A DNA stretch of 64,000 bases from assembly GCF_026151205.1 (NCBI RefSeq), contig NC_087082.1:9618901-9682900 (forward strand). Reading direction: 5' to 3'. Numbering within the stretch: the first letter of the stretch is position 1; each line of letters starts with the position of its first letter. The notes below the pieces were generated by a model. That model was not told the origin of the DNA, made no database searches, and saw only the letters and a list, made by a program, of their open reading frames with translations. The DNA is from Bolinopsis microptera (Eukaryota; Ctenophora; Tentaculata; Lobata; Bolinopsidae). Position numbers and translations under genes: made by a program. Shown one piece after another: positions 2,880 through 64,000 of this stretch.

Positions 2880-3770
2880 CACTAATTAATGACTTATTAT
2901 AATAAATGACTTATTATAATGATCGCAAGTTTATGTCCTGCCGTCACCTTGGCCATATTTGGTGAGAACTGCAAAAGGTTTCTTAACTTCTAATTCTAAA
3001 GAATGGTTCGTTAAATATTAAACGAGTAATTAATTTGCGTTTTCTTGTGCTGCTTTGCAGGATTATAGTGGAATCAAACAGCCTTTCAGTGAACAGTTAA
3101 TCAGCTGTCGATTAACAAATAAGATGGAAGGGTTAACATGGTGGATCACATTGTGCAGAACTTTATTAATATGTGCATATTATTTCGCTCACCCACGAAT
3201 TATCACGTGACTTGAGTTTTTACGGTCTTGCTGCCGAACAAAACGGTTTTATACATAATCCTTGACAATAACATGTGACACCAACCCTAACCACAACCCT
3301 AACCACAACCCTAACCTCAACCCTATAAGTATAACTTAACCCTAAAAAGTCGAATTTGCGTTTTACTAGCCCATAGCCCGCCGTACGTGGCTAAAAGTGA
3401 AACATTTTTTGCCCATATAATATTGCTCGGTACTCCTCAGAGTCGGGCACGCCGTGCCCGGCACGGTATTTTTATTTGGCCGAGTGATTTATTGGGAGCG
3501 CTTTGTTTACGCTGATATGATATACTACTTATATGTTAGGTTCTACTTCTGAGGTTCATTAATCAAGGCTTTATCGGCAAACCAATTAAATTCATTATAG
3601 TGTAGTTGGATTGAAATTTGATCATGTAAATTAGGGCAAAGTTAACACTGAACACCACAAGCCTGAAGCCCTCTATCATGGAAAGATGTGCCAGTTACAT
3701 TCTACAGGTTATGTAGAATTACCACATCATATGTACAATAGAATTGTATACTTCCATTTCATTATCAGAC
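2880..3770. other. intergenic; short telomere-like tract
   Basis: No gene seen. At about 3290-3335 there is a degenerate run of AACCCTAACC blocks separated by AC or TC. It is too short and irregular to be called an interstitial telomere. Confidence 0.4.
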
Positions 3771-4735: not shown

Positions 4736-4925
4736 ACAATCACAGCAAATTAATGTACAAGATTTCAGAAATTTTACGAGAAAATCATGTTGCTTTTAGT
4801 TTAAGATGTAGAACAGGCCAAAATGACTGACTATAGAACGAAAAACCAGCCGCTATCAAACAATGTTTCAGCTCATTGTTTCATGTACATATGATTTTAT
4901 TGTAAATGATCAATATATTAATATA

Positions 4926-5130
4926 GGCCCTCTCTCCCTCTCTCCCTCATCTCCTTATCTCCTTCTCACCCTCTCTCCCTATCTTCCTTTCTCCTTCTCC
5001 CACTCTCCTTACCTCCCTCTCTCCCTCTATCACTCTCTCTTTATCTCCCTCTCTCTCTTCATCTCCCTCTCTCCTCCTCTCACTCTCTTTCTCACCCTCT
5101 CTACTTCTCTACCTCTTTCCCTCCCTGGAA
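4926..5130. repeat. CT-rich low-complexity tract
   Basis: Degenerate CTCTCCCT-type polypyrimidine repeat. The long ORF through it is a composition artefact. Confidence 0.8.
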
Positions 5131-6536: not shown

Positions 6537-9500
6537 CTATGCTATTACTGGTCTCTTGACTAACTCCCAATCATCTGTCCATATGGTATTGTTTCTGGAC
6601 AAATAGATGGTATACGATGCCCTCAGGCTGATCTCAGCGATCTTCATGCAGGCCTTCTTCTTCTCTTTGTTGTTTACGTTCAGGTGGTTCATAAAGGTTG
6701 GGAGGCTATAGTTGTAAATGCCTCGAGCTCCCACTTCTACTGTCTGGAGCTTGCAAGCCCATCCGTTGGCTTCTATCTCTTCTGTCAGCTGCTGATATCT
6801 CTTCATCTTTCGCTTCTCTTGATCAGCAAAGTTCTGCTCATTTCCACAAGTCAGCTCCATTAGATAAACCTTCTTTGCTTTATCTGAATAGATCACTACA
6901 TCAGGTCTTAGTGGTGTAGCTGCAATGTGCTGCGGGAAGTTCCTCTGTCTCTCATCCTCATCAAATATTATCTTCCAGTCGTTGGCATCTGAAAAGAAAT
7001 ATCTTTGGGTCTTATGATGAGTTGGGTCAGCTAAGGTAACCTTCTCGCGCTTATTGCCTGCCTTGTGAAAGACCGACGGTGCCCTCTTCGATTCCTTGGC
7101 GATGTCGGAATTAAACTCTTCAATCTGTGATGAAACAGTCTTCATGATTTCACGTAGGACCTGATCATGGCGCCAGTTGAAACGTCCCTGTCTTAGTGCA
7201 ACCTTGCAGAACGTCAGGATATGATTGAGTGTCCCTTGTTTGCTGCAGAGTTTACAGTTTCCTGAAACGGCTTTATTCCAAAGCTTTAGGTTGCTAGGTG
7301 TTGACGCAGTGTCATGAATAGCATTGACATGGAACTTTAACAGTTCCGGACTAAGTTGATAGATCAAGTTATTCCACGTGGTGTCAAATGTCATTGTATT
7401 TTCCCATGTGAGAAAGAGGTTTTGCCGCTTTTTGTCAAAAAGTGAACAAATAAGTGTCTCTTCATCAAAGGTCCTCACCATGTTGGTTAGCAGTTTCCTC
7501 TCTGATGTGTCCTCATATCTTGTCCCATACCCGAGGCCAGTTGTACCAACTGCAGGTTTTCCAACTAACTCTTGGAAGTAAAGTTGGCGCTGACGGTCTT
7601 TCAGCTCTTTGGGATAAGACCACATCTTCTGTGTGTCTGCAATAGCCTTATGGTTAGAGTACACTTTTTTGATGTAGGGGTCACTTGAGTTACAAAGTTG
7701 GTGTCCCTTAATAAGTTGGATGACTTTGTACTCAGTGCAGATGTTTTTCAGCTGCAATCCTTTCTGGTCTCTACTCCTGTAGAGGACGGTGGTGGTACAA
7801 GGATGCGCAATCCCTAGCCACTTCTTAAGGTATCTGTTACACAGTGCCTCAAGCTCTCTCACAAATGTGATGGGTAGGTTATAAACAGTAAACCCCCATG
7901 ACATCTTACTAATGATGAGGTTGTTATACACCCACGCCTTCATTGGACCGGTGATTTCATCATTAGACGTTGTTTCCAAAAGGTCCTCTAACTTCTTCTT
8001 AATCATGGACCGAATTTCCTTTACCTCAAGATCTACATACATGTACATTCCTAGGAACTTCATTGGTGCTTGGATAATGGACGGCACCTGTTGTTCGCTT
8101 AGTACAAACTCTGCATCATAGGTATTGTACTTTCCTCCAGTACACTTCATAGACATAGACAGGCACTTCGATGGTTTAGCCTTCATTTTCTTCGACCAGT
8201 CCAGGAACTCTTCTACTACCTTCAACATCTTCTTCATCTCCTTCTCGCTCTTCGACAACAGGGTTAGGTCATCAGCAAATGCTTTCTTTGAGGTCTTGCT
8301 ATCACTGAAGCTTGGCTCATACCCAACTTGACTGCACAGTACAGCTAGAAGTTCCAGTAGGATGTTGAATACTATAAGGAACAGGATCACGGACAGTGGG
8401 TCTCCCTGGAACAGGCCTAGCTCATACCAGAATGTTCTGGATGTCCATTTCCTGCACTTAACTAGGACACTGAGGCTTCCATAATACTCTATTATAAGCT
8501 TAATGAAGCTTTCAGGTAGGTGGTACCGGCGTAGGGCATAAATAATAAGGCTGTGCGGGATTCTCCCATACGCATTCATAAGGTCAATCCAGATCACGTG
8601 GACTTGTCTTCTGTGGCTTTTAGCATCTTTAATCTCTTCAAGGAGGGCTTGAGTGTGTTCTAGGCAACCAGGGGTTTTCTTCATGAAACCTTTCTGTACT
8701 GAGGTGTCAATGAACAGATTTCGTGTCATGTGCTCAAGTACACGGTCTCCCCAGATGGCAAAGAACAGCTTCCCGCTACAGTTTTGGAGTGTGATGTTAC
8801 GGAACTTGCCAGGATCTTTTAGATCATCCGTTTTAGGAATTAATGTACTCACTCCCACCTTCCACTGTGGGGGGACAACTCCTGTTTTCCAAATCCTGCA
8901 TATCAGATGGTGTAGATGGTGACTGAAAGTTCGACACTTCTTGTAGATCAGGTAGTTGACACCATTTGACCCAGGTGCTGACTTATTTCTCCTTGACTTA
9001 AGCTTTAGGTGGAATTCATCCCATGTGGGTGGCGCTGTACTGCAGATCCAATTAGGTTTGTCAAGGTCTTTCAGTCCTGTGGGGTTTACATAGTCACGCT
9101 CTCGGTCATCATCTTTGTACTCCTTTTCAAAGAACTTAGATGCTTCTTCACTGTCGAACTCAGGCTCTTTATCTTTAGTCTCTTCCTTCGTGAGCAGTTT
9201 CTTACCATACTCATAAGGGTTTCTTCTAAAGAGTTTGGAGCTATTCTCTTTCATCTTTTTCCTTTCTTTCTTCTGGGCGGTCTTTCTTGCTTTTTTATGA
9301 AGTCGTACTAGTTTCAGGTAAGAAATCTTCTGTCTTTTAACCTGTTCATCATCATTCGAGTCACATACTCTCTTCCATTCCTTTCTGCTCTCTTTCTTCA
9401 TTTCCCTCAACTGTCTGCACTCAGCATCAAGTCTCGGTTTTTTCTTCGATGGTATAATGTTTGTTGAACCAACTTCGCATATCAACTCGAGGTAGTCATA

Positions 9501-9920
9501 GGTGGTGTTCTCAAGTAACTCCAAACCCTTACTAGGGTCGCTGTGTGTAGTGAACTGGAGACCAATTAGACCGAGGTCTTGATCAATCTTGTCCCACCTA
9601 ATATCATTGGCCTTAGGTAGTTTTAATCGAGTTTTAATAACTACCGGTTCTGGTGGATCTGCGTGAGATCTAAAGTTTGCAGACGTAGACGTCCTCCATT
9701 TTGCACTGTGGTTTGTATCCTGGCTGGGTTCCGTCTCCGTGTTACCTCCTTCCTGACCGATAATGCCTACGGCATCCTCTTCCAGGCTCTTGTCCGGTGT
9801 CTGCTTACAAAATCTCGCGTGTTTCTTCACGTGCTTAAACCACCTTTTACACTTATCACACTGTTGGTCGTGTGTAACACTCCGTCCTGTGTTGTTTCCA
9901 CTATCATCTTGCTGGCTTGT
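6537..9920 (-). CDS. non-LTR retrotransposon ORF (R2/HERO-like, restriction-like endonuclease type)
   Basis: One uninterrupted frame of 1127 codons. Near the N terminus (about 9860-9800) is a zinc-finger-like CDKC...H...H...C motif. A basic lysine-rich stretch follows. The reverse transcriptase domain has a motif-A block WIDLMNAYG and the catalytic FADDL about 550 residues in. Toward the C terminus come the CCHC motif (CKLC...H...C, near 7250) and a restriction-like endonuclease block RPDVVIY...ELTC near 6900. Zinc finger, RT, CCHC and endonuclease in that order define the R2 superclade; the endonuclease block looks closest to HERO elements. No in-frame ATG occurs before or near the zinc finger, so the start is unclear: GTG at 9830 lies inside the finger. 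With no stop or frameshift it may be young or active. The 3' side abuts the MITE at 6141-6446, so any 3' UTR is under 100 bp. Confidence 0.9.
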   Translation of the reverse strand, partial: TSQQDDSGNNTGRSVTHDQQCDKCKRWFKHVKKHARFCKQTPDKSLEEDAVGIIGQEGGNTETEPSQDTNHSAKWRTSTSANFRSHADPPEPVVIKTRLKLPKANDIRWDKIDQDLGLIGLQFTTHSDPSKGLELLENTTYDYLELICEVGSTNIIPSKKKPRLDAECRQLREMKKESRKEWKRVCDSNDDEQVKRQKISYLKLVRLHKKARKTAQKKERKKMKENSSKLFRRNPYEYGKKLLTKEETKDKEPEFDSEEASKFFEKEYKDDDRERDYVNPTGLKDLDKPNWICSTAPPTWDEFHLKLKSRRNKSAPGSNGVNYLIYKKCRTFSHHLHHLICRIWKTGVVPPQWKVGVSTLIPKTDDLKDPGKFRNITLQNCSGKLFFAIWGDRVLEHMTRNLFIDTSVQKGFMKKTPGCLEHTQALLEEIKDAKSHRRQVHVIWIDLMNAYGRIPHSLIIYALRRYHLPESFIKLIIEYYGSLSVLVKCRKWTSRTFWYELGLFQGDPLSVILFLIVFNILLELLAVLCSQVGYEPSFSDSKTSKKAFADDLTLLSKSEKEMKKMLKVVEEFLDWSKKMKAKPSKCLSMSMKCTGGKYNTYDAEFVLSEQQVPSIIQAPMKFLGMYMYVDLEVKEIRSMIKKKLEDLLETTSNDEITGPMKAWVYNNLIISKMSWGFTVYNLPITFVRELEALCNRYLKKWLGIAHPCTTTVLYRSRDQKGLQLKNICTEYKVIQLIKGHQLCNSSDPYIKKVYSNHKAIADTQKMWSYPKELKDRQRQLYFQELVGKPAVGTTGLGYGTRYEDTSERKLLTNMVRTFDEETLICSLFDKKRQNLFLTWENTMTFDTTWNNLIYQLSPELLKFHVNAIHDTASTPSNLKLWNKAVSGNCKLCSKQGTLNHILTFCKVALRQGRFNWRHDQVLREIMKTVSSQIEEFNSDIAKESKRAPSVFHKAGNKREKVTLADPTHHKTQRYFFSDANDWKIIFDEDERQRNFPQHIAATPLRPDVVIYSDKAKKVYLMELTCGNEQNFADQEKRKMKRYQQLTEEIEANGWACKLQTVEVGARGIYNYSLPTFMNHLNVNNKEKKKACMKIAEISLRASYTIYLSRNNTIWTDDWELVKRPVIA

Positions 9921-10622: not shown

Positions 10623-13600
10623 TTATCTTTTAGTTTTAGACGAGAACCACTGTACCGGCCAAGTACCGTCCTTCTCAAGAGCCGACAACCAGTTCTCAAC
10701 CTGGGTAATAAAGATTTATAGAGGTGCGTAATTATTATATTGAATAATCACCAAATGTTCAAGTATTTGTATGTTGATCTATATCATAGTAACGCTTGAA
10801 AATAAAGGTAACTTATACAAATGCATATAAATAAGTTTCTGTGGCCACAGCTGCTAAAAGCTGGCCTCATAATTTCATGCATATATATTATACACTATAC
10901 ACTGTATAGTATACAGGGTGTTCACGATACATTGTATCATATCTGTAGTGCATTTATCCGGTGTGTATAATTGAAATTTGGAGATTTAACAAGCGGCTGC
11001 AGCTATAATATTCACCTTGACGTAAGAGTTGTGAGTGAGATATCCACCTTGATGTAAGAGTTGTGAGTGAGATATTCACCTTGACGTAAGAGTTGTGAGT
11101 GAGATATTCACCTTGACGTAAGAGTTGTGAGTGAGATATTCACCTTGACGTAAGAGTTGTGAGTGAGATATTAACCTTGGCGTAAGAGTTGTGAGTGAGA
11201 TATTCACCTTGACGTAAGAGTTGTGAGTGAGATATTCACCTTGGCGTAAGAGTTGTGAGTGAGATATCCACCTTGATGTAAGAGTTGTGAGTGAGATATT
11301 CACCTTGACGTAAGAGTTGTGAGTGAGATATTCACCTTGACGTAAGAGTTGTGAGTGAGATATTAACCTTGGCGTAAGAGTTGTGAGTGAGATATTCACC
11401 TTGAAGTAAGAGTTGTGAGTGAGATATCCACCTTGATGTAAGAGTTGTGAGTGAGATATTCACCTTGACGTAAGAGTTGTGAGTGAGATATTCACCTTGA
11501 CGTAAGAGTTGTGAGTGAGATATTAACCTTGGCGTAAGAGTTGTGAGTGAGATATTCACCTTGAAGTAAGAGTTGTGAGTGAGATATTCACCTTGACGTA
11601 AGAGTTGTGAGTGAGATATCCACCTTGATGTAAGAGTTGTGAGTGAGATATTCACCTTGACGTAAGAGTTGTGAGTGAGATATTCACCTTGACGTAAGAG
11701 TTGTGAGTGAGATATTAACCTTGGCGTAAGAGTTGTGAGTGAGATATTAACCTTGGCGTAAGAGTTGTGAGTGAGATATTCACCTTGACGTAAGAGTTGT
11801 GAGTGAGATATTCACCTTGGCGTAAGAGTTGTGAGTGAGATATCCACCTTGATGTAAGAGTTGTGAGTGAGATATTCACCTTGACGTAAGAGTTGTGAGT
11901 GAGATATTCACCTTGGCGTAAGAGTTGTGAGTGAGATATTAACCTTGGCGTAAGAGTTGTGAGTGAGATATTCACCTTGACGTAAGAGTTGTGAGTGAGA
12001 TATTCACCTTGGCGTAAGAGTTGTGAGTGAGATATTAACCTTGGCGTAAGAGTTGTGAGTGAGATATTCACCTTGACGTAAGAGTTGTGAGTGAGATATT
12101 CACCTTGGCGTAAGAGTTGTGAGTGAGATATCCACCTTGATGTAAGAGTTGTGAGTGAGATATTCACCTTGACGTAAGAGTTGTGAGTGAGATATTCACC
12201 TTGACGTAAGAGTTGTGAGTGAGATATTAACCTTGGCGTAAGAGTTGTGAGTGAGATATTAACCTTGGCGTAAGAGTTGTGAGTGAGATATTCACCTTGA
12301 CGTAAGAGTTGTGAGTGAGATATTCACCTTGGCGTAAGAGTTGTGAGTGAGATATCCACCTTGATGTAAGAGTTGTGAGTGAGATATTCACCTTGACGTA
12401 AGAGTTGTGAGTGAGATATTCACCTTGACGTAAGAGTTGTGAGTGAGATATTAACCTTGGCGTAAGAGTTGTGAGTGAGATATTCACCTTGAAGTAAGAG
12501 TTGTGAGTGAGATATTCACCTTGACGTAAGAGTTGTGAGTGAGATATTCACCTTGACGTAAGAGTTGTGAGTGAGATATTCACCTTGACGTAAGAGTTGT
12601 GAGTGAGATCAGCGTGGCCCACTCTCCTGAGAAACTCGTTGTACCTCGCTAGAGTCAGCTGCTCAGCAGGGTCTTTAGACTCTGAAGTTTCCTCCGTGGT
12701 GGGGGTCTCACTGTTCCTCCTGGTGGTGTACATGTCAGAGAGAGGTGTATAGGCTGATATGTACATTGTACATGTCAGACTGATATAATGTACATTGTAG
12801 GGGTATTGTATGCATGCAGGAGTAATTTTATACATTATGGGGTAGTTTTATACACGCAAGGGTGATGTAATGCATTTTGAGTTGGTTAAAAGACCATCGG
12901 AGGAGAATTACAATCGGAGTCATCTAAATTCTATTATCATGAATGATTTGAAGTTAATAATTGAAATCAATGAAAATTACAGCCTGTCCTTGTTTTAACA
13001 TGTATCTTAATAGTTTGCTAAATTTCGTACTGCTTCTGAGATGTGAGTAACCACACTAGTGACCACACTACAGACCTGTTGATGTAGTTGAAGGTGACCC
13101 TGATAGGCGGAGGGGTGGCAGCAGGGGAGAGGGGTGTGGTTTCTGCTGCAGGGCACCTGGTGTTTACTATTGGTGGCAGGTCCTCCTTCTGCTGGCCCTT
13201 AGTAGAGAGTCGTGCTGGGCTGAGAGGGTTGTTAGGCGGTTACTGTGGTGTTGTTAGGTGGTTACTGTGGTGTTGTTAGGTGGTTACTGTGTTGTTGTTA
13301 GGTGGTTACTGTGGTGTTGTTAGGTGGTTACTGTTGTGTTGTTAGGTGGTTACTGTGGTGTTGTTAGGTGGTCACTGTGGTGTTGTTATGTGGTTACTGT
13401 TGTGTTGTTAGGTGGTTACTGTGGTGTTGTTAGGTGGTTACTGTTGTTATTAGGTGTTTACTGTGGTGTTGTTAGGTGGTTACTGTGGTGTTGTTAGGTG
13501 GTTACTGTGGTGTTGTTATGTGGTTACTGTGGTGTTGTTAGGTGGTTACTGTGGTGTTGTTAGGTGGTTACTGTGGTGTTGTTAGGTGGTTACTGTGGTG

Positions 13601-15051
13601 TTGTTAGGTGGTTACTGTGTTGTTAGGAGGTTACTGTGTTGTTGTTAGGTGGTTACTGTGGTGTTGTTAGGTGGTTACTGTGGTGTTTTTAGGTGGTTAC
13701 TGTGGTGTTGTTAGGTGGTTACTGTGTTGTTGTTAGGTGGTTACTGTGGTTTTGTTAGGTGGTTACTGTGGTGTTGTTAGGTGGTTACTGTTGTGTTGTT
13801 AGGTGGTTACTGTGGTGTTGTTAGGTGGTTACTGTGGTGTTGTTATGTGGTTACTGTGGTGTTGTTAGGTGGTTACTGTGGTGTTGTTAGGTGGTTACTG
13901 CGGTGTTGTTAGGTGGTTACTGTGGTGTTGTTAGGTGGTTACTGTATTGTTAGGTGGTTACTGTGTTGTTGTTAGGTGGTTACTGTGGTGTTGTTAGGTG
14001 GTTACTGTGGTGTTGTTAGGTGGTTACTGTGGTGTTGTTAGGTGGTTACTGTGGTGTTGCTAGGTGGTTACTGTGGTGTTGTTAGGTGGTTACTGTGGTG
14101 TTGTTAGGTGGTTACTGTGGTGTTGTTAGGTGGTTACTGTGTTGTTAGGTGGTTACTGTGGTGTTGTTAGGTGGTTACTGTGTTGTTAGGTGGTTACTGT
14201 GGTGTTGTTAGGTGGTTACTGTGTTGTTAGGTGGTTACTGTGGTGTTGTTAGGCGGTTACTGTGTTGTTGTTAGGTGGTTACTGTGTTGTTGTTAAGTGG
14301 ACTTCGTATTTCTATAATTTGCCAAATTTTTTTAAATCGTGGTCTATGTAAGTCGATGCTACTGGCTGATTTTAATTGCTGTTCGAATTGGACCATTGGC
14401 ATTGATTGAAACATTTACCCTCCCATACCTTTTACTATGCACTACAAAGTGGCTGGGTTGTCTTGACTGAACTAACTTCCTCCCACCGGAATAAGCTGTA
14501 CTTTGTTTAGGACGGAACGGCTTTGTCCACACCGGGAATGAAACCTAAAGTTGTATTATTTATGATGAGATCACAACCATAACAAAATACATACGCAATT
14601 ATAATTAAATTAAATTAAAATGCAAATTAATGCAATTAAGATGCAAATCACAATCACCCATCAGTAAGCTGCAAGTAGGAGGTCAAATAAAAAGTAGGAG
14701 AAAACTAGGAGAAAACTAGGAGAAAATGCTGAAAAGTAAGAAAAGTATGAAGTATGAGGGTCTGGCCAACATGTCCATCAAACACCAGTAACCTGCGCTA
14801 ACCTGCTCTCTCATGGAGATATTGTTGAAGTTAGGAGCAGATTGAGTGATGCCGCTCCTCTGTCCGCATTGTCCACCTTTCTGTCCCCCACTATTACCAT
14901 TCCCTCCATTGTGGAGTCTCCCGTTGTTGCTCAGCACATTGTATTTGTAGCTCTTGTAGTAAGCTGATTTGTGGAGGGGGAAGTTTCGTGACAGGGAGGA
15001 AGTTATGTGTGTTGTTTTGGGTCTGGTGTCTTGGAGCGGAGGATGCGCCAC
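10623..15051 (-). CDS. unrecognised multi-exon gene (3' part), introns filled with minisatellites
   Basis: Four exons join in frame on the minus strand: 15051-14803 (83 codons, Ser/Asn/Gly-rich, ends MREQ), 13197-13076, 12719-12584 and terminal 10700-10623 (ends WFSSKTKR then TAA). Every junction has AG and GT: TTGCAG before exon 1, CAG|GTTAGC after it, AAG/CAG|GTCTG around exon 2, CACCAG before exon 3, AAG|GTGAAT after it, CCCAG before the last. Phases agree throughout (0, 2, 0), which supports a real gene. The visible product is 194 residues with no domain I recognise; the start and upstream exons were not found. Exon 3 runs directly into the first unit of the 32-bp array, and each unit repeats its donor. 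Introns 1 to 3 each hold an array beside a splice site. Confidence 0.65.
11006..12609 (-). repeat. 32-bp minisatellite, about 50 units, each containing a 5' splice-site motif
   Basis: On the gene (minus) strand each unit reads approximately ACTCACAACTCTTACGTC followed by AAGGTGAATATCTC. Variants occur on both sides (CGTC/CGCC/CATC/CTTC before; GTGAAT/GTTAAT/GTGGAT after), but AAGGT is retained in every unit I read. The first unit forms the 3' end of the exon at 12719-12584. The array fills most of the intron to the terminal exon at 10700. Units carrying GTTAAT place a TAA in one frame; otherwise the array is open. Confidence 0.95.
13228..14297 (-). repeat. 22-bp minisatellite in intron, about 48 units
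   Basis: Plus-strand unit GTGGTTACTGTGGTGTTGTTAG with shorter variants (17 and 19 bp). On the gene strand it reads CTAACAACACCACAGTAACCAC, which contains a branch-point-like CTAAC and an acceptor-like CACAG. It ends about 30 bp upstream of the true acceptor of the exon at 13197. Confidence 0.93.
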
Positions 15052-15063
15052 CTGCAATAGCTG

Positions 15064-15232
15064 TAAGTGGTGAAGTGGCACTGGGTGGTAAAGTGGCACT
15101 GAGTGGGGAGGTGAAATTGGGTGGTAAAGTGGCACTGAGTGGTGAGGTGGTACTGGGTGGTAAAATGGCACTGAGTGGTAAAATGGCACTGAGTGGCGAA
15201 GTGGCACTGAGTGATCAAGTTAAAAGTGGTAC
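15064..15232 (-). repeat. 18-bp minisatellite just upstream of an exon
   Basis: About nine degenerate units of GTGGCACTGAGTGGTAAA type. It lies about 13 bp upstream of the 3' splice site of the exon that starts at 15051. Confidence 0.85.
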
Positions 15233-15498
15233 TGGTTGGTTGATTCGAGAGTAACACTGAGTGGTAAAGTGGTACAGGAAAAGTGCAAATAGAAGGATTA
15301 TAACTTGTGCCTTGTATGTATCTAAAATGTACCTGTATCATGTTTCTGTTGGCTTGTCCCGATGTTCTACTGTCATATCCGTACATGACACTTCATTTCA
15401 CTGTCTCCCTTACATCTTGCCTTCTCTTTCTTAGCGTTCTATTTATTGAAGTTAACACATTTATCAAAGATAATTTTTAGTCTTACGTCCTCCAGACA

Positions 15499-19190: not shown

Positions 19191-27129
<7,939 letters not shown>

Positions 27130-40974: not shown

Positions 40975-43705
40975 CCCTCGTGGTTCTAAAGCGGTATTCT
41001 CAAGAAACTCTTGTGGCACTCTAGCGGCACTCAAGCGGCTTTATCAAGGCACTCTCGAGGCACTCTCGTGGCATTCTAGTGGCACTCTAGTGGCACTCTC
41101 GTGGCACTCTCGTGGCACTCTATTGGCACTTAAATGGCATCATCAAGGCACTCTCGTGCCACTCAAGCGCTATTCTCGTGGCACTCTCGTCACAATCTCG
41201 TGGCTCTCACGTGACACTCTCAGGGCACTCTCGTGACACTCTCATGGCACTCTCGTGGAACTCTCATGGCACTCTCGTGGAACTCTCGTGGCACTCTCGT
41301 GGCACTCTCGTGGCACCCAAGCGTCAATCTCAATGCACTTAAGCGGCATTCTCAAGGCACTCTCGTGGCAGTCACGTGGCACTCACGTGGCACTCACGTG
41401 GCACTCACGTGGCACTCAAGCAACATTCTCAAGGCACTCAAGCGGCATCCTCAAGGCACTCTCGTGTTACTCAAGCGGCATTTTCAAGGCACTCTCGTGG
41501 CACTCTCGTGGCACTCTCGTGAAACTCTCATGGCATTCTCGTTGCAGTCTCGTGGCACTCAAGCGTCAATCTCAATGCACTTAAGCGGCATTCTCAAGGC
41601 ACTCTCGTGGCAGTCACGTGGCACTCACGTGGCACTCACGTGGCACTCACGTGGCACTCACGTGGCACTCACGTGGCACTCACGTGACACTCACGTGGCA
41701 CTCACGTGGCACTCAAGCAACATTCTCTAGGCACTCAAGCGGCATCCTCAAGGCACTCTCGTGTTACTCAAGCGGCATTTTCAAGGCACTCTCGTGGCAC
41801 TCAAGCGGCAGTCTCAAGGCACTCTTGTGGCACTCTAGCGGCACTATAGCAGCTTTATCAAGGCACTTTCGTGGCACTCTCTAAGCACTCTCATGGCACT
41901 CTTGTGGCACTCTTGTGGCACTCTCATGGCACTCTCATGGCACTCAAGTGGCATCATCAAGGCACTCTCGTGCCACTCAAGCGCTATTCTCGTGGCACTC
42001 TCGTCACACTCTCGTTGCACTCTTGTGGCACTCACGTGACACTCTCATGGCACTCCCGTGGAATTCTCGTGGCGCGCTCGTGGCACTCTCGTGGCATACT
42101 CGTGGCATACTCGTGGCACTCTCGTGGCACTCTCGTGGCACTCTCGTGACACACTCGTGGCACTCTCGTGGCACTCTCGTGGCACTCTCGTGGCACTCTC
42201 GTGGCACTCTCGTGGCACTCTCGTGGAACTCTCGTGGCACTCTCGTGGCATTTTCGTGGCACTCTCGTTGCACTCTCGTGGCGCTCTCGTGGCACTATCG
42301 TGGCACTCTCGTGGCACTCTCGTGGCACTCTCGTGGCACTCTCGTGAAACTCTCGTGGCATTCTCGGTGCAGTCTCGTGGCACTCAAGCGTCAATCTTAA
42401 GGCACTTAAGCGGCATTATCAAGGCACTCAAGCGGCATTATCAAGGCACTCTCGTGCCACTCAAGCGGCATTTTCAAGGCAATCTCGTGGCACTCAAGCG
42501 GCAGTCTCAAGGCATTCTTATGGCACTCTAGCGGCTTTATCAAGGCACTTTTGTGGCACTCTCGAGGCACTCTCGTGGCCTTCTCGTGGCACTCTCGTGG
42601 CACTCTCGTAGAACTCTCGTGGCATTGTCGTAACACACTTGTGGCACTCTCGTGGCATACTCGTGGCATACTCGTGGCACTCTCGTGGCACTCTCGTGGC
42701 ACTCTCGTGACACACTCGTGGCACTCTCGTGGCACTCTCGTGGCACTCTCGTGGCACTCTCGTGGAACTCTCGTGGCACTCTCGTGGCATTTTCGTTGCA
42801 CTCTCGTGGCGCTCTCGTGGCACTCTCGTGGCACTCTCGTGGCACTCTCGTGGCATTCTCGTGAAACTCTCGTGGCAGTCTCGTTGCAGTCTCGTGGCAC
42901 TCAAGCGTCAATCTCAAGGCACTTAAGCGGCATTCTCAAGGCACTCTCGTGGCACTCAAGCAACATTCTTAAGGCACTCAAGCGGCATTATCAAGGCACT
43001 CTCGTACCACTCAAGCGGCATTTTCAAGGCAATCTCGTGGCACTCAAGCGGCAGTCTCAAGGCACTCTTATGGCACTCTAGCGGCTTTATCAAGACACTT
43101 TTGTGGCACTCTCGAGGCACTGTCGTGGCACTCTCGCGGCACTCTCGTGGCACTTTCGTGGCACTTTTGTGGCACTCTCGTGGCACTCTCGTAGAACTCT
43201 CGTGGCATTGTCGTAACACACTTGTGGCACTCTCGTGGCATTCTCGTGGCAGTCACGTGACTCAAGCAACATTCTCAAGGCACTCAAGCAGCATCCTCAA
43301 AGCACTCTCGTACCACTCAAGCGGCATTTTCAAGGCACTCTTGTGGCACTCTACCGGCACTCTAGCGGCTTTATCAAGGCACTCTTGTACCACTCAAGCG
43401 GCATTTTCTAGGCACTCTTGTGGCACTCTAGCGGCACTCTAGCGGCACTCTAGCGGCTTTATCAAGGCACTCTCGTGGAACTCTCGTGGAAATCTCCTGG
43501 CACTCTCGCGTGGCACTGTCGTGGCACTCTCGTGGTACTGTCGTGGCATTTTCGTGGTACTGTCGTGGCATTCTCATAACAATCTTGTGGCACTCTCTTG
43601 GCACTCTCGTTCCACTCTCGTGACACTCTCTTGGCACTCTCGTGCCACTCAAGCGGCATCCTCAAGGCACTCTCGTGGCACTCAAGCAGAATTTTCAAGG
43701 CACTC
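40975..43705 (+). repeat. 11-bp tandem array (GGCACTCTCGT and variants)
   Basis: About 250 units; main unit GGCACTCTCGT with variants such as GGCACTCAAGC and GGCATTCTCAA. Larger blocks are repeated, for example 41330-41500 and 41570-41780 are near copies. As 11 is not a multiple of 3 all frames cycle through a 33-bp period, producing many overlapping 60-176 codon ORFs on both strands that are artefacts. Confidence 0.95.
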
Positions 43706-62809: not shown

Positions 62810-63440
62810 TCGTATTGCAATCACTAATGCAGTTACTTTTAGTCGGGGCTGTAAGGGGAATACGCTGGCAATAATGTTCAAATTGCCGCCAAATTTCAAA
62901 ACTTTTATATAAATATGCTCATTCTGGTTAGTTTTGAACTACAGAGAACTAACTCCATAGCAGTAATCAATTTGCAAAATTGCACTCAGCAATTGGCCGA
63001 AACTAATTTGACCGCATAAACAAAATTAGTTTTTTCGCCTAGAAATAATTTTGAACATTCCGTGCCAACAAACCTCAAAATCGACTTTTCCATACACCTC
63101 TAAGTCTAACTATGAACCGTATGAACATATTGAATTTACAATACCTTGTATGTTGATACACTTTTGATAAACTTTGAAGATAAATGTATTGATTTTTTTT
63201 GTATTTGCGTTTCTTAACTTATACATATTTGCATCTGAGATTTTGTGTTTAAATATGTTCAGTTCATTACAATTTACAATGGTATAATCGCGTATTATAT
63301 ACACTAATGTAACTGCGTATAATGCGATTACACTCGAATCCGAGTTCGATTATTACAGTTATTTCACGAGGCGCAGATAATCGAGTTGGACTTTCCGTTC
63401 CGTATGTTCCGCGGAACGATATTTGAAGAAAGTCGATTAT
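62810..63440. other. no gene seen
   Basis: AT-rich sequence between the helicase gene and the satellite. Two inverted TCGATTAT/ATAATCG-type motifs near 63340-63445; nothing else supported. Confidence 0.4.
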
Positions 63441-64000
63441 CTCGAGATCTGAATGATAGAATTTCTTTAAACTTTCCAGATAGTTACATGGCTATCAGAC
63501 CGATAATCTGAGCAAGTTTGGGCGAATTTCTATGTGCCAAACCTAAGATATGACTTCAAACACAAGAAAATATCTCAAATTGGCGCGTTCTAGCAGAACG
63601 CAGGCATTTATTTCGAGATCTGAATGATAGAATTTCTTTAAACTTTCCAGATAGTTACATGGCTATAAGACGGATAATCTGAGCGAGTTTGGGCGAATTT
63701 CTATGTGCCAAACTTAAGATATGACTTCAAACACAAGAAAATATCTCAAATTTGCGCGTTCTAGCGGAACGCAGGCATTTATTTCGAGATCTGAATGATA
63801 GAATTTCTTTAAACTTTCCAGATAGTTACATGGCTATAAGACGGATAATCTGAGCGAGTTTGGGCGAATTTCTATGTGCCAAACTTAAGATATGACTTCA
63901 AACACAAGAAAATATCTCAAATTGGCGCGTTCTAGCGGAACGCAGGCATTTATTTCGAGATCTGAATGATAGAATTTCTTTAAACTTTCCAGATAGTTAC
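63441..64000. repeat. 171-bp satellite array, continues past the window
   Basis: Units start at CGAGATCTGAATGATAG at 63443, 63614, 63785 and 63956, an exact spacing of 171 bp. Copies 2 and 3 differ at only a few bases; copy 1 is slightly more diverged, as expected at an array edge. No ORF. Confidence 0.95.

Follow-up and report, generated by a model that had tools for sequence, protein, structure and literature searches.

The 64,000-nucleotide (nt) stretch of the Bolinopsis microptera genome analyzed here (NCBI RefSeq assembly GCF_026151205.1, NC_087082.1, positions 9,618,901–9,682,900, hereafter the window) contains a 32-bp minisatellite that spans an exon–intron boundary of a predicted gene, designated gene A. 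The minisatellite is genuine and belongs to a known kind, the junction-spanning "mirage" of amphioxus, found here in an unexpected phylum. Tandem Repeats Finder (TRF) places the array at 11008–12609 of the window with a period of 32, 50.1 copies, 95% matches, and 0% indels. In the register of the exon, it is composed of 50 units (11010–12609, minus strand), each consisting of the last 26 nt of gene A exon 5 followed by 6 intronic nt that include a GT donor. Unit 1, which starts at 12609, is the terminal 26 nt of exon 5 itself together with the initial 6 nt of the intron; the array therefore spans the exon–intron boundary, starting 26 nt upstream of the donor and within exon 5. The 3' end of this exon (12719–12584, minus strand) reads CTCACAACTCTTACGTCAAG/GTGAAT (the slash marks the splice cut), with the donor context CAAG/GTGAAT. 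Both TRF and the 50 units in register bear out the preliminary description of this DNA, which reported a 5' splice site amplified in tandem about 50 times.

CAAGGT is present in 50/50 units, such that the splice signals (AG/GT) are carried by every unit. The units fall into five types (24, 10, 7, 6, and 3 copies) that vary at positions 21, 22, 29, and 30 (4/32), and 24 of the 50 are identical to the authentic junction across all 32 nt. The preliminary description had also proposed that AAGGT is specially conserved within the units. The motif is indeed kept in 50/50 units, yet 28 of the 32 unit positions are invariant and the chance that a 5-mer is invariant under these circumstances is 0.49; given that only four positions vary, the constancy of AAGGT is not special. 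Blocks up to nine units long recur inside the array, as unequal exchange predicts. A search of the assembly (264,652,675 bases, 232 contigs) at up to three mismatches found 50 matches to the unit in the 264.65-Mb genome, all within the gene A array, whereas exon 5 has a single match and is thus single-copy in the assembly. A dispersed intron-generating element of the introner type is rejected on the basis of this confinement, at up to three mismatches, of the unit to one array.

Gene A is predicted to comprise six exons on the minus strand, with GT/AG borders and compatible phases, which together encode a 261-amino acid protein from ATG to TAA. The coding part of exon 1 (15333–15386) begins with the ATG and is followed by exon 2 (14803–15060), exon 3 (14429–14544), exon 4 (13076–13219), exon 5 (12584–12719), whose final 26 nt supply the exonic portion of unit 1 and whose authentic donor follows 12584, and the last exon, exon 6 (10623–10700), which is in phase 0 and ends with the TAA. 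Exon 5 is open in one of its three frames. Exon 6 is preceded by ACCCAG and its phase matches that of exon 5, in agreement with the earlier proposal that this downstream exon accepts in the matching phase. The exon model proposed at that stage is likewise coherent in its start, stop, GT/AG borders, and phases, a support that comes from anatomy and not from homology: the predicted protein matched no Pfam family at E ≤ 10, and the search of PDB returned nothing convincing (best E 0.56). The last intron (10701–12583, minus strand) is 1,883 nt long, with 307 nt between the end of the array and the acceptor.

We consider it likely that the first donor is the working one, that the other 49 are intronic copies, and that the array is largely neutral, having been born by tandem duplication followed by expansion. 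According to this scenario, a 32-bp stretch covering the 3' end of exon 5 and the adjacent 5' splice site would have been duplicated in tandem, and ordinary minisatellite processes (unequal exchange or slippage) would have expanded it to 50 copies. The exon-proximal unit would have stayed the working donor, presumably the only one used, and the other 49 copies would be excised with the intron, so that the usual product would be one mRNA. The array would be mostly neutral, and its length probably varies between individuals. An alternative origin is that an AGGT-bearing segment, duplicated in tandem, gave rise to the intron itself or enlarged it, and that the array is what remains of that event. 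This idea has been proposed for mirages (PMC3087553), and it suits an array that occupies most of the 1,883-nt intron and whose start is exonic. However, 307 nt separate the end of the array from the acceptor, which means that no copy of the unit forms the 3' splice site and that the two splice sites are not both copies of one segment; this leaves such an origin improbable for the gene A intron.

All 50 donor choices were translated to establish the coding consequence of each. The full protein is obtained from donor 1 only (...HNSYVK/VENWLSALEKDGTWPVQWFSSKTKR), and donor 2 gives a frameshifted tail. Donors 3–50 (48/50) all yield one identical truncated protein, because a TGA in unit 2 (12548–12550, minus strand) is in frame with exon 5 and shuts reading for each of them. 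This result bears directly on the suggestion, made in the preliminary description, that use of a donor three units further on would add 32 residues in frame and that the intron could thereby generate a ladder of isoforms. GT does follow CAAG in all 50 units, and the arithmetic stands (96 nt equal 32 codons); the added codons, however, are closed by the TGA at 12550–12548. The in-frame ladder is thus refuted at the protein level under the standard code, and we give next to no credence to the use of multiple donors to produce in-frame isoforms in 96-nt steps, given that the frame is lost with donor 2 and that one truncated protein is shared by 48 of the 50 donors.

The same truncated products are central to a different functional proposal, in which the array acts as a decoy or sink: downstream donors would capture some of the transcripts, these would be truncated and degraded, and array length would tune the output of the gene. 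We scored the donors with a matrix built from the 33 other modeled donors, which is a small matrix. The authentic donor scores 7.30, the 11th lowest among 34. GTGAAT, the authentic sequence, is found in 33/50 units (7.30, authentic donor included), GTTAAT in 10 (8.40), and GTGGAT in 7 (4.84); in favor of a decoy, 33 units, the first included, score as the authentic donor does and 10 score higher. The stops reached from donors 3–50 lie 31–1,535 nt upstream of the last junction. Nonsense-mediated decay follows a position rule that is applied to stops lying upstream of the last junction, and many of these stops could trigger it. Set against this, regular splicing is reportedly unaffected by the mirages of amphioxus (PMC3087553, PMC3902484), and we regard a decoy role as unlikely, although less so than the other alternatives to a largely neutral array. 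By analogy, the same amphioxus reports of undisturbed splicing would favor the sole use of the first donor.

Each unit also has a pyrimidine-rich stretch upstream of CAAG/GT and could in principle serve as acceptor and donor at once (AG/GT), in which case recursive splicing would remove the array stepwise, regenerating the junction each time. Two unit types (7 + 3 units) have acceptor scores inside the range of the modeled acceptors, in its lower part; however, the other three types, which account for 40 of the 50 units, score 3.2–3.4 and fall under all 33 modeled acceptors (lowest 4.63). In addition, an intron of 32 nt, the length of a single step, is very short. Recursive splicing is not favored by these weak acceptor scores, and we judge it very improbable.

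We next consider whether the gene A array is an isolated case. In the window plus 200 kb of flanking sequence (264 kb in total), 53 arrays of at least 4 copies and at least 100 bp make up 13.0% of the sequence. The models made for this region cover 67 splice junctions and 33 introns, distributed over five genes. Three of them have Pfam matches and are designated PPM1G-like (PP2C, E 5.8e-66), PLAA-like (PFU, E 4.3e-30), and ZCCHC24-like (ZCCHC24_C, E 1e-19); the other two are gene A and gene D, the latter with Pfam matches only below the cut-offs. Of the 53 arrays, nine are no more than 30 nt from a modeled junction, where random placement would predict 1.6, and 9 of the 11 large arrays in modeled introns overlap a splice site or lie within 10 nt of one; this does not hold for the second of the PPM1G-like intron 1 arrays or for the PLAA-like intron 1 array, which is 64 nt from its donor. 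For 16 arrays in modeled introns (at least 2.8 copies and at least 40 bp) compared with uniform placement within the intron, the Fisher-combined P is 5.7e-6 (the P value of each array was rounded to three places before combination), and it is 5.4e-5 when the gene A 32-bp array is left out. These values carry a bias, as gene D, the ZCCHC24-like gene, and in part the PLAA-like gene were noticed beside arrays, whereas the window itself contains gene A and the PPM1G-like gene. With these last two genes only, and without the 32-bp array, P is 0.0046; with the PLAA-like gene added, it is 0.0026.

Several of these arrays illustrate how closely repeats approach or cross splice sites. In gene A itself (minus strand), a 22-bp array of 49.5 copies in intron 3 (13228–14300), whose units contain CTAAC and CACAG, stops 8 nt short of the exon 4 acceptor, and a 36-bp (18-bp) array in intron 1 (15066–15213) stops 5 nt short of the exon 2 acceptor. 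The PPM1G-like phosphatase gene has 11 exons (window about 19191–27129, minus strand). On the same strand, its intron 1 contains a 26-bp array of 24.7 copies (26361–27002) that begins 1 nt past the donor cut of exon 1, and its intron 8 contains a GA-rich array (20175–21363) that begins 7 nt past the exon 8 donor. A 40-bp array of 24 copies repeats the gene D exon end AGTCCAGACGAG/GTTTGC, and a 25-bp array of 13.8 copies does so for the end of PLAA-like exon 1, GCATGACCGCCACT/GTAAGTT, starting 64 nt downstream of it. The terminal array of PLAA-like intron 2, with TTACTAG/GTG units, extends 3 nt into the exon, and the array of the ZCCHC24-like gene starts 3 nt ahead of its donor.

Two further loci in the region show related structures. 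At L029 about 4800–4960 (minus strand), the PLAA-like exon 2 acceptor and exon start, ACAACCAG/GGTCTGATAGTGACAGGG, occur twice in tandem, a two-copy duplication of a 3' splice site. At L024 about 8300–8470 (minus strand), the exon end CGGAGCAATAGTTGGG/GTAATATG is repeated downstream; this is likely a 5' splice-site array and stands outside the counts given above.

On the scale of the whole genome, we counted occurrences of the donor word AGGTDAGT three times with 8–38 nt between. These counts are of matches, usually several per array, and the repeat counts are lower bounds. AGGTDAGT triples number 2,610 + 3,071 = 5,681, compared with 133 + 161 = 294 for the reversed word, a ratio of 19. As single words outside arrays in 314 kb, AGGTDAGT occurs 21 times and the reversed word 30 times. 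A shuffled word, GAGTDGAT, gives 252 + 143 = 395 triples and its reverse, TAGDTGAG, 677 + 844 = 1,521; this 3.7-fold contrast is weaker than 19, and TAGDTGAG includes the donor-like TAGGTGAG. Among the matches listed, six arrays lie in the first 2.51 Mb of C1, which by rough extrapolation corresponds to about 600 arrays in the whole genome.

These six arrays, taken in list order and without a matched control set, all abut or cross a predicted splice site (6/6). At 36.6 kb, the 32-bp unit is made of an exon end and donor (...YLMIALFTQ/GTACTT), the exon having no Pfam family. The array at 401 kb has a 34-bp unit and adjoins a Sushi-like exon (E 0.024, below the cut-off) ending GAGAG/GTGAGT. At 804 kb, an exon ending ...LAHMLGAG/GTTAGT is copied in a long G-rich array, and the exon presumed to come next (GIFVITPS...) resembles amino-acid permeases (E 1.9e-4, below the cut-off). 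At these three positions, as in gene D and at PLAA-like exon 1, an exon end is repeated in the manner of the gene A array. The array at 935 kb begins at the donor of a zinc-finger exon (best E 3.8e-6, at the cut-off). At 1998 kb, the array ends about 15 nt short of a predicted acceptor that immediately precedes the start codon of a methyltransferase gene in antisense orientation (E 4.4e-10). At 2508 kb, a copine-like exon (E 1e-4, below the cut-off), likewise antisense, has its predicted acceptor where the array ends. Copied splice junctions thus appear to be common in this genome, with the gene A array as one of many.

A broader hypothesis, which we advance only tentatively and hold to be less likely true than false, is that ctenophore junctions are preferred birthplaces of arrays and that a process linked to splicing or transcription repeatedly duplicates exon ends and splice sites, in hundreds of introns. 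The 19-fold ratio of the word triples and the 6/6 arrays at predicted junctions would accord with it. DNA repair at R-loops or at stalled transcription would be a candidate for such a process. If this were true, junction arrays would lengthen introns and supply spare splice sites.

Several observations weigh against our interpretation, both for gene A and for the region at large. Copies that have not decayed would also fit a function, though neutrality does not demand decay, and the donors of ten units outscore the authentic donor (8.40 vs 7.30). Gene A has no known relative, such that exon 5 is recognized from anatomy alone. In the 264-kb region, junction-centered 24-mers have copies within 3 kb at 4/67 junctions, compared with 15/67 positions 60 nt and 15/67 positions 120 nt into introns (0/67 at positions 40 nt into exons). 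Whole junctions are therefore copied no more often than intron interiors, and introns are generally array-rich. Among 70 units from the 314 kb, AGGT ranks third of 136 words, with 23 units against 13.7 expected, an enrichment that is mild only. Lastly, the matched word is antisense to the exon in three of the six C1 arrays (36.6, 1998, and 2508 kb), which means that some of the counted words are not copies of authentic donors. Other chromosomes were sampled with five 10-kb stretches, but these had few arrays and few recognizable multi-exon genes and were of no help as a test. Our claim is limited to an excess, over uniform placement, of arrays that reach or cross junctions. For the gene A array, a single working donor followed by largely neutral intronic copies continues to be the reading that we favor.

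Other features of the region are recorded here for completeness. The window contains an open frame of 1,127 residues (6540–9920, minus strand), a 2.7-kb array of 11-bp units that is open in several frames (41007–43683; TRF 243 copies, 71% matches), and a 171-bp satellite array that runs from 63437–64000 into L020:1–795, about 0.8 kb beyond the window. A spliced-leader-like element at L011 about 3658–3701 (plus strand) ends AATTTGAG/GT and has 10/44 mismatches to the Hormiphora leader as given in the source (PMC8527503); four further, weaker elements of this type are found among the matches listed in the 264-kb region. A genome-wide search with the leader end returned 452 matches at up to three mismatches, and the total is uninformative because the reversed word returned 409; the close matches form a cluster on C13. 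No COX1 was found in the assembly.

Mirages have been described from lancelets, and comparable, shorter boundary repeats have been reported from human duplicated genes. Their occurrence in a ctenophore, where they are apparently numerous, indicates that the phenomenon is not bound to one lineage. With such a genome, there would be many naturally occurring cases in which to examine which of several dozen almost identical donors the spliceosome selects, and whether splice junctions have a particular tendency to duplicate in tandem; duplication of this sort has been proposed as a path to longer introns and to new ones. In the literature searched, with most subscription journals outside its reach, no report of mirages in ctenophores was found; titles and the opening lines of abstracts yielded none on minisatellites in ctenophore genes, and the accessible portions of the Hormiphora, Mnemiopsis, and Bolinopsis genome literature mention no repeats at splice junctions. 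As excerpted, the Hormiphora genome paper gives a tandem repeat content of 13% by TRF, and the intronic minisatellites of an earthworm metallothionein gene are not described as junction-spanning.

The closest known system is that of amphioxus, in which, according to the available parts of the reports, repeats span exon–intron boundaries in Adh3, the globins BflGb6 and BflGb9, TnC, and PGBD5, with regular splicing suggested by RT-PCR and with length instability (PMC3087553, PMC3902484). The unit length in gene A (32 bp) lies within the 10–72 bp reported for Adh3 mirage units (PMC3087553, PMC3902484). The differences are the phylum, the genome-wide abundance indicated here, and the copy number, which is 50 units in gene A and 3 and 6 in two BflGb6 haplotypes. 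Human genes in segmental duplications similarly contain variable internal tandem repeats with units averaging 30 bp, some of them at exon–intron boundaries, where they are reported to yield novel introns (PMC2812944). The human repeats, as summarized there, average 4 copies in recent primate paralogs and are accompanied by transcript evidence of altered gene structure, in contrast to the 50 units at a single-copy exon described here (PMC2812944). Gene A also resembles the reported intron gain in potato RdRp, in that tandem duplication of AGGT-bearing segments is tied to splice sites; however, the duplication in potato makes the intron, whereas in gene A the acceptor lies 307 nt outside the array (PMC4974935).
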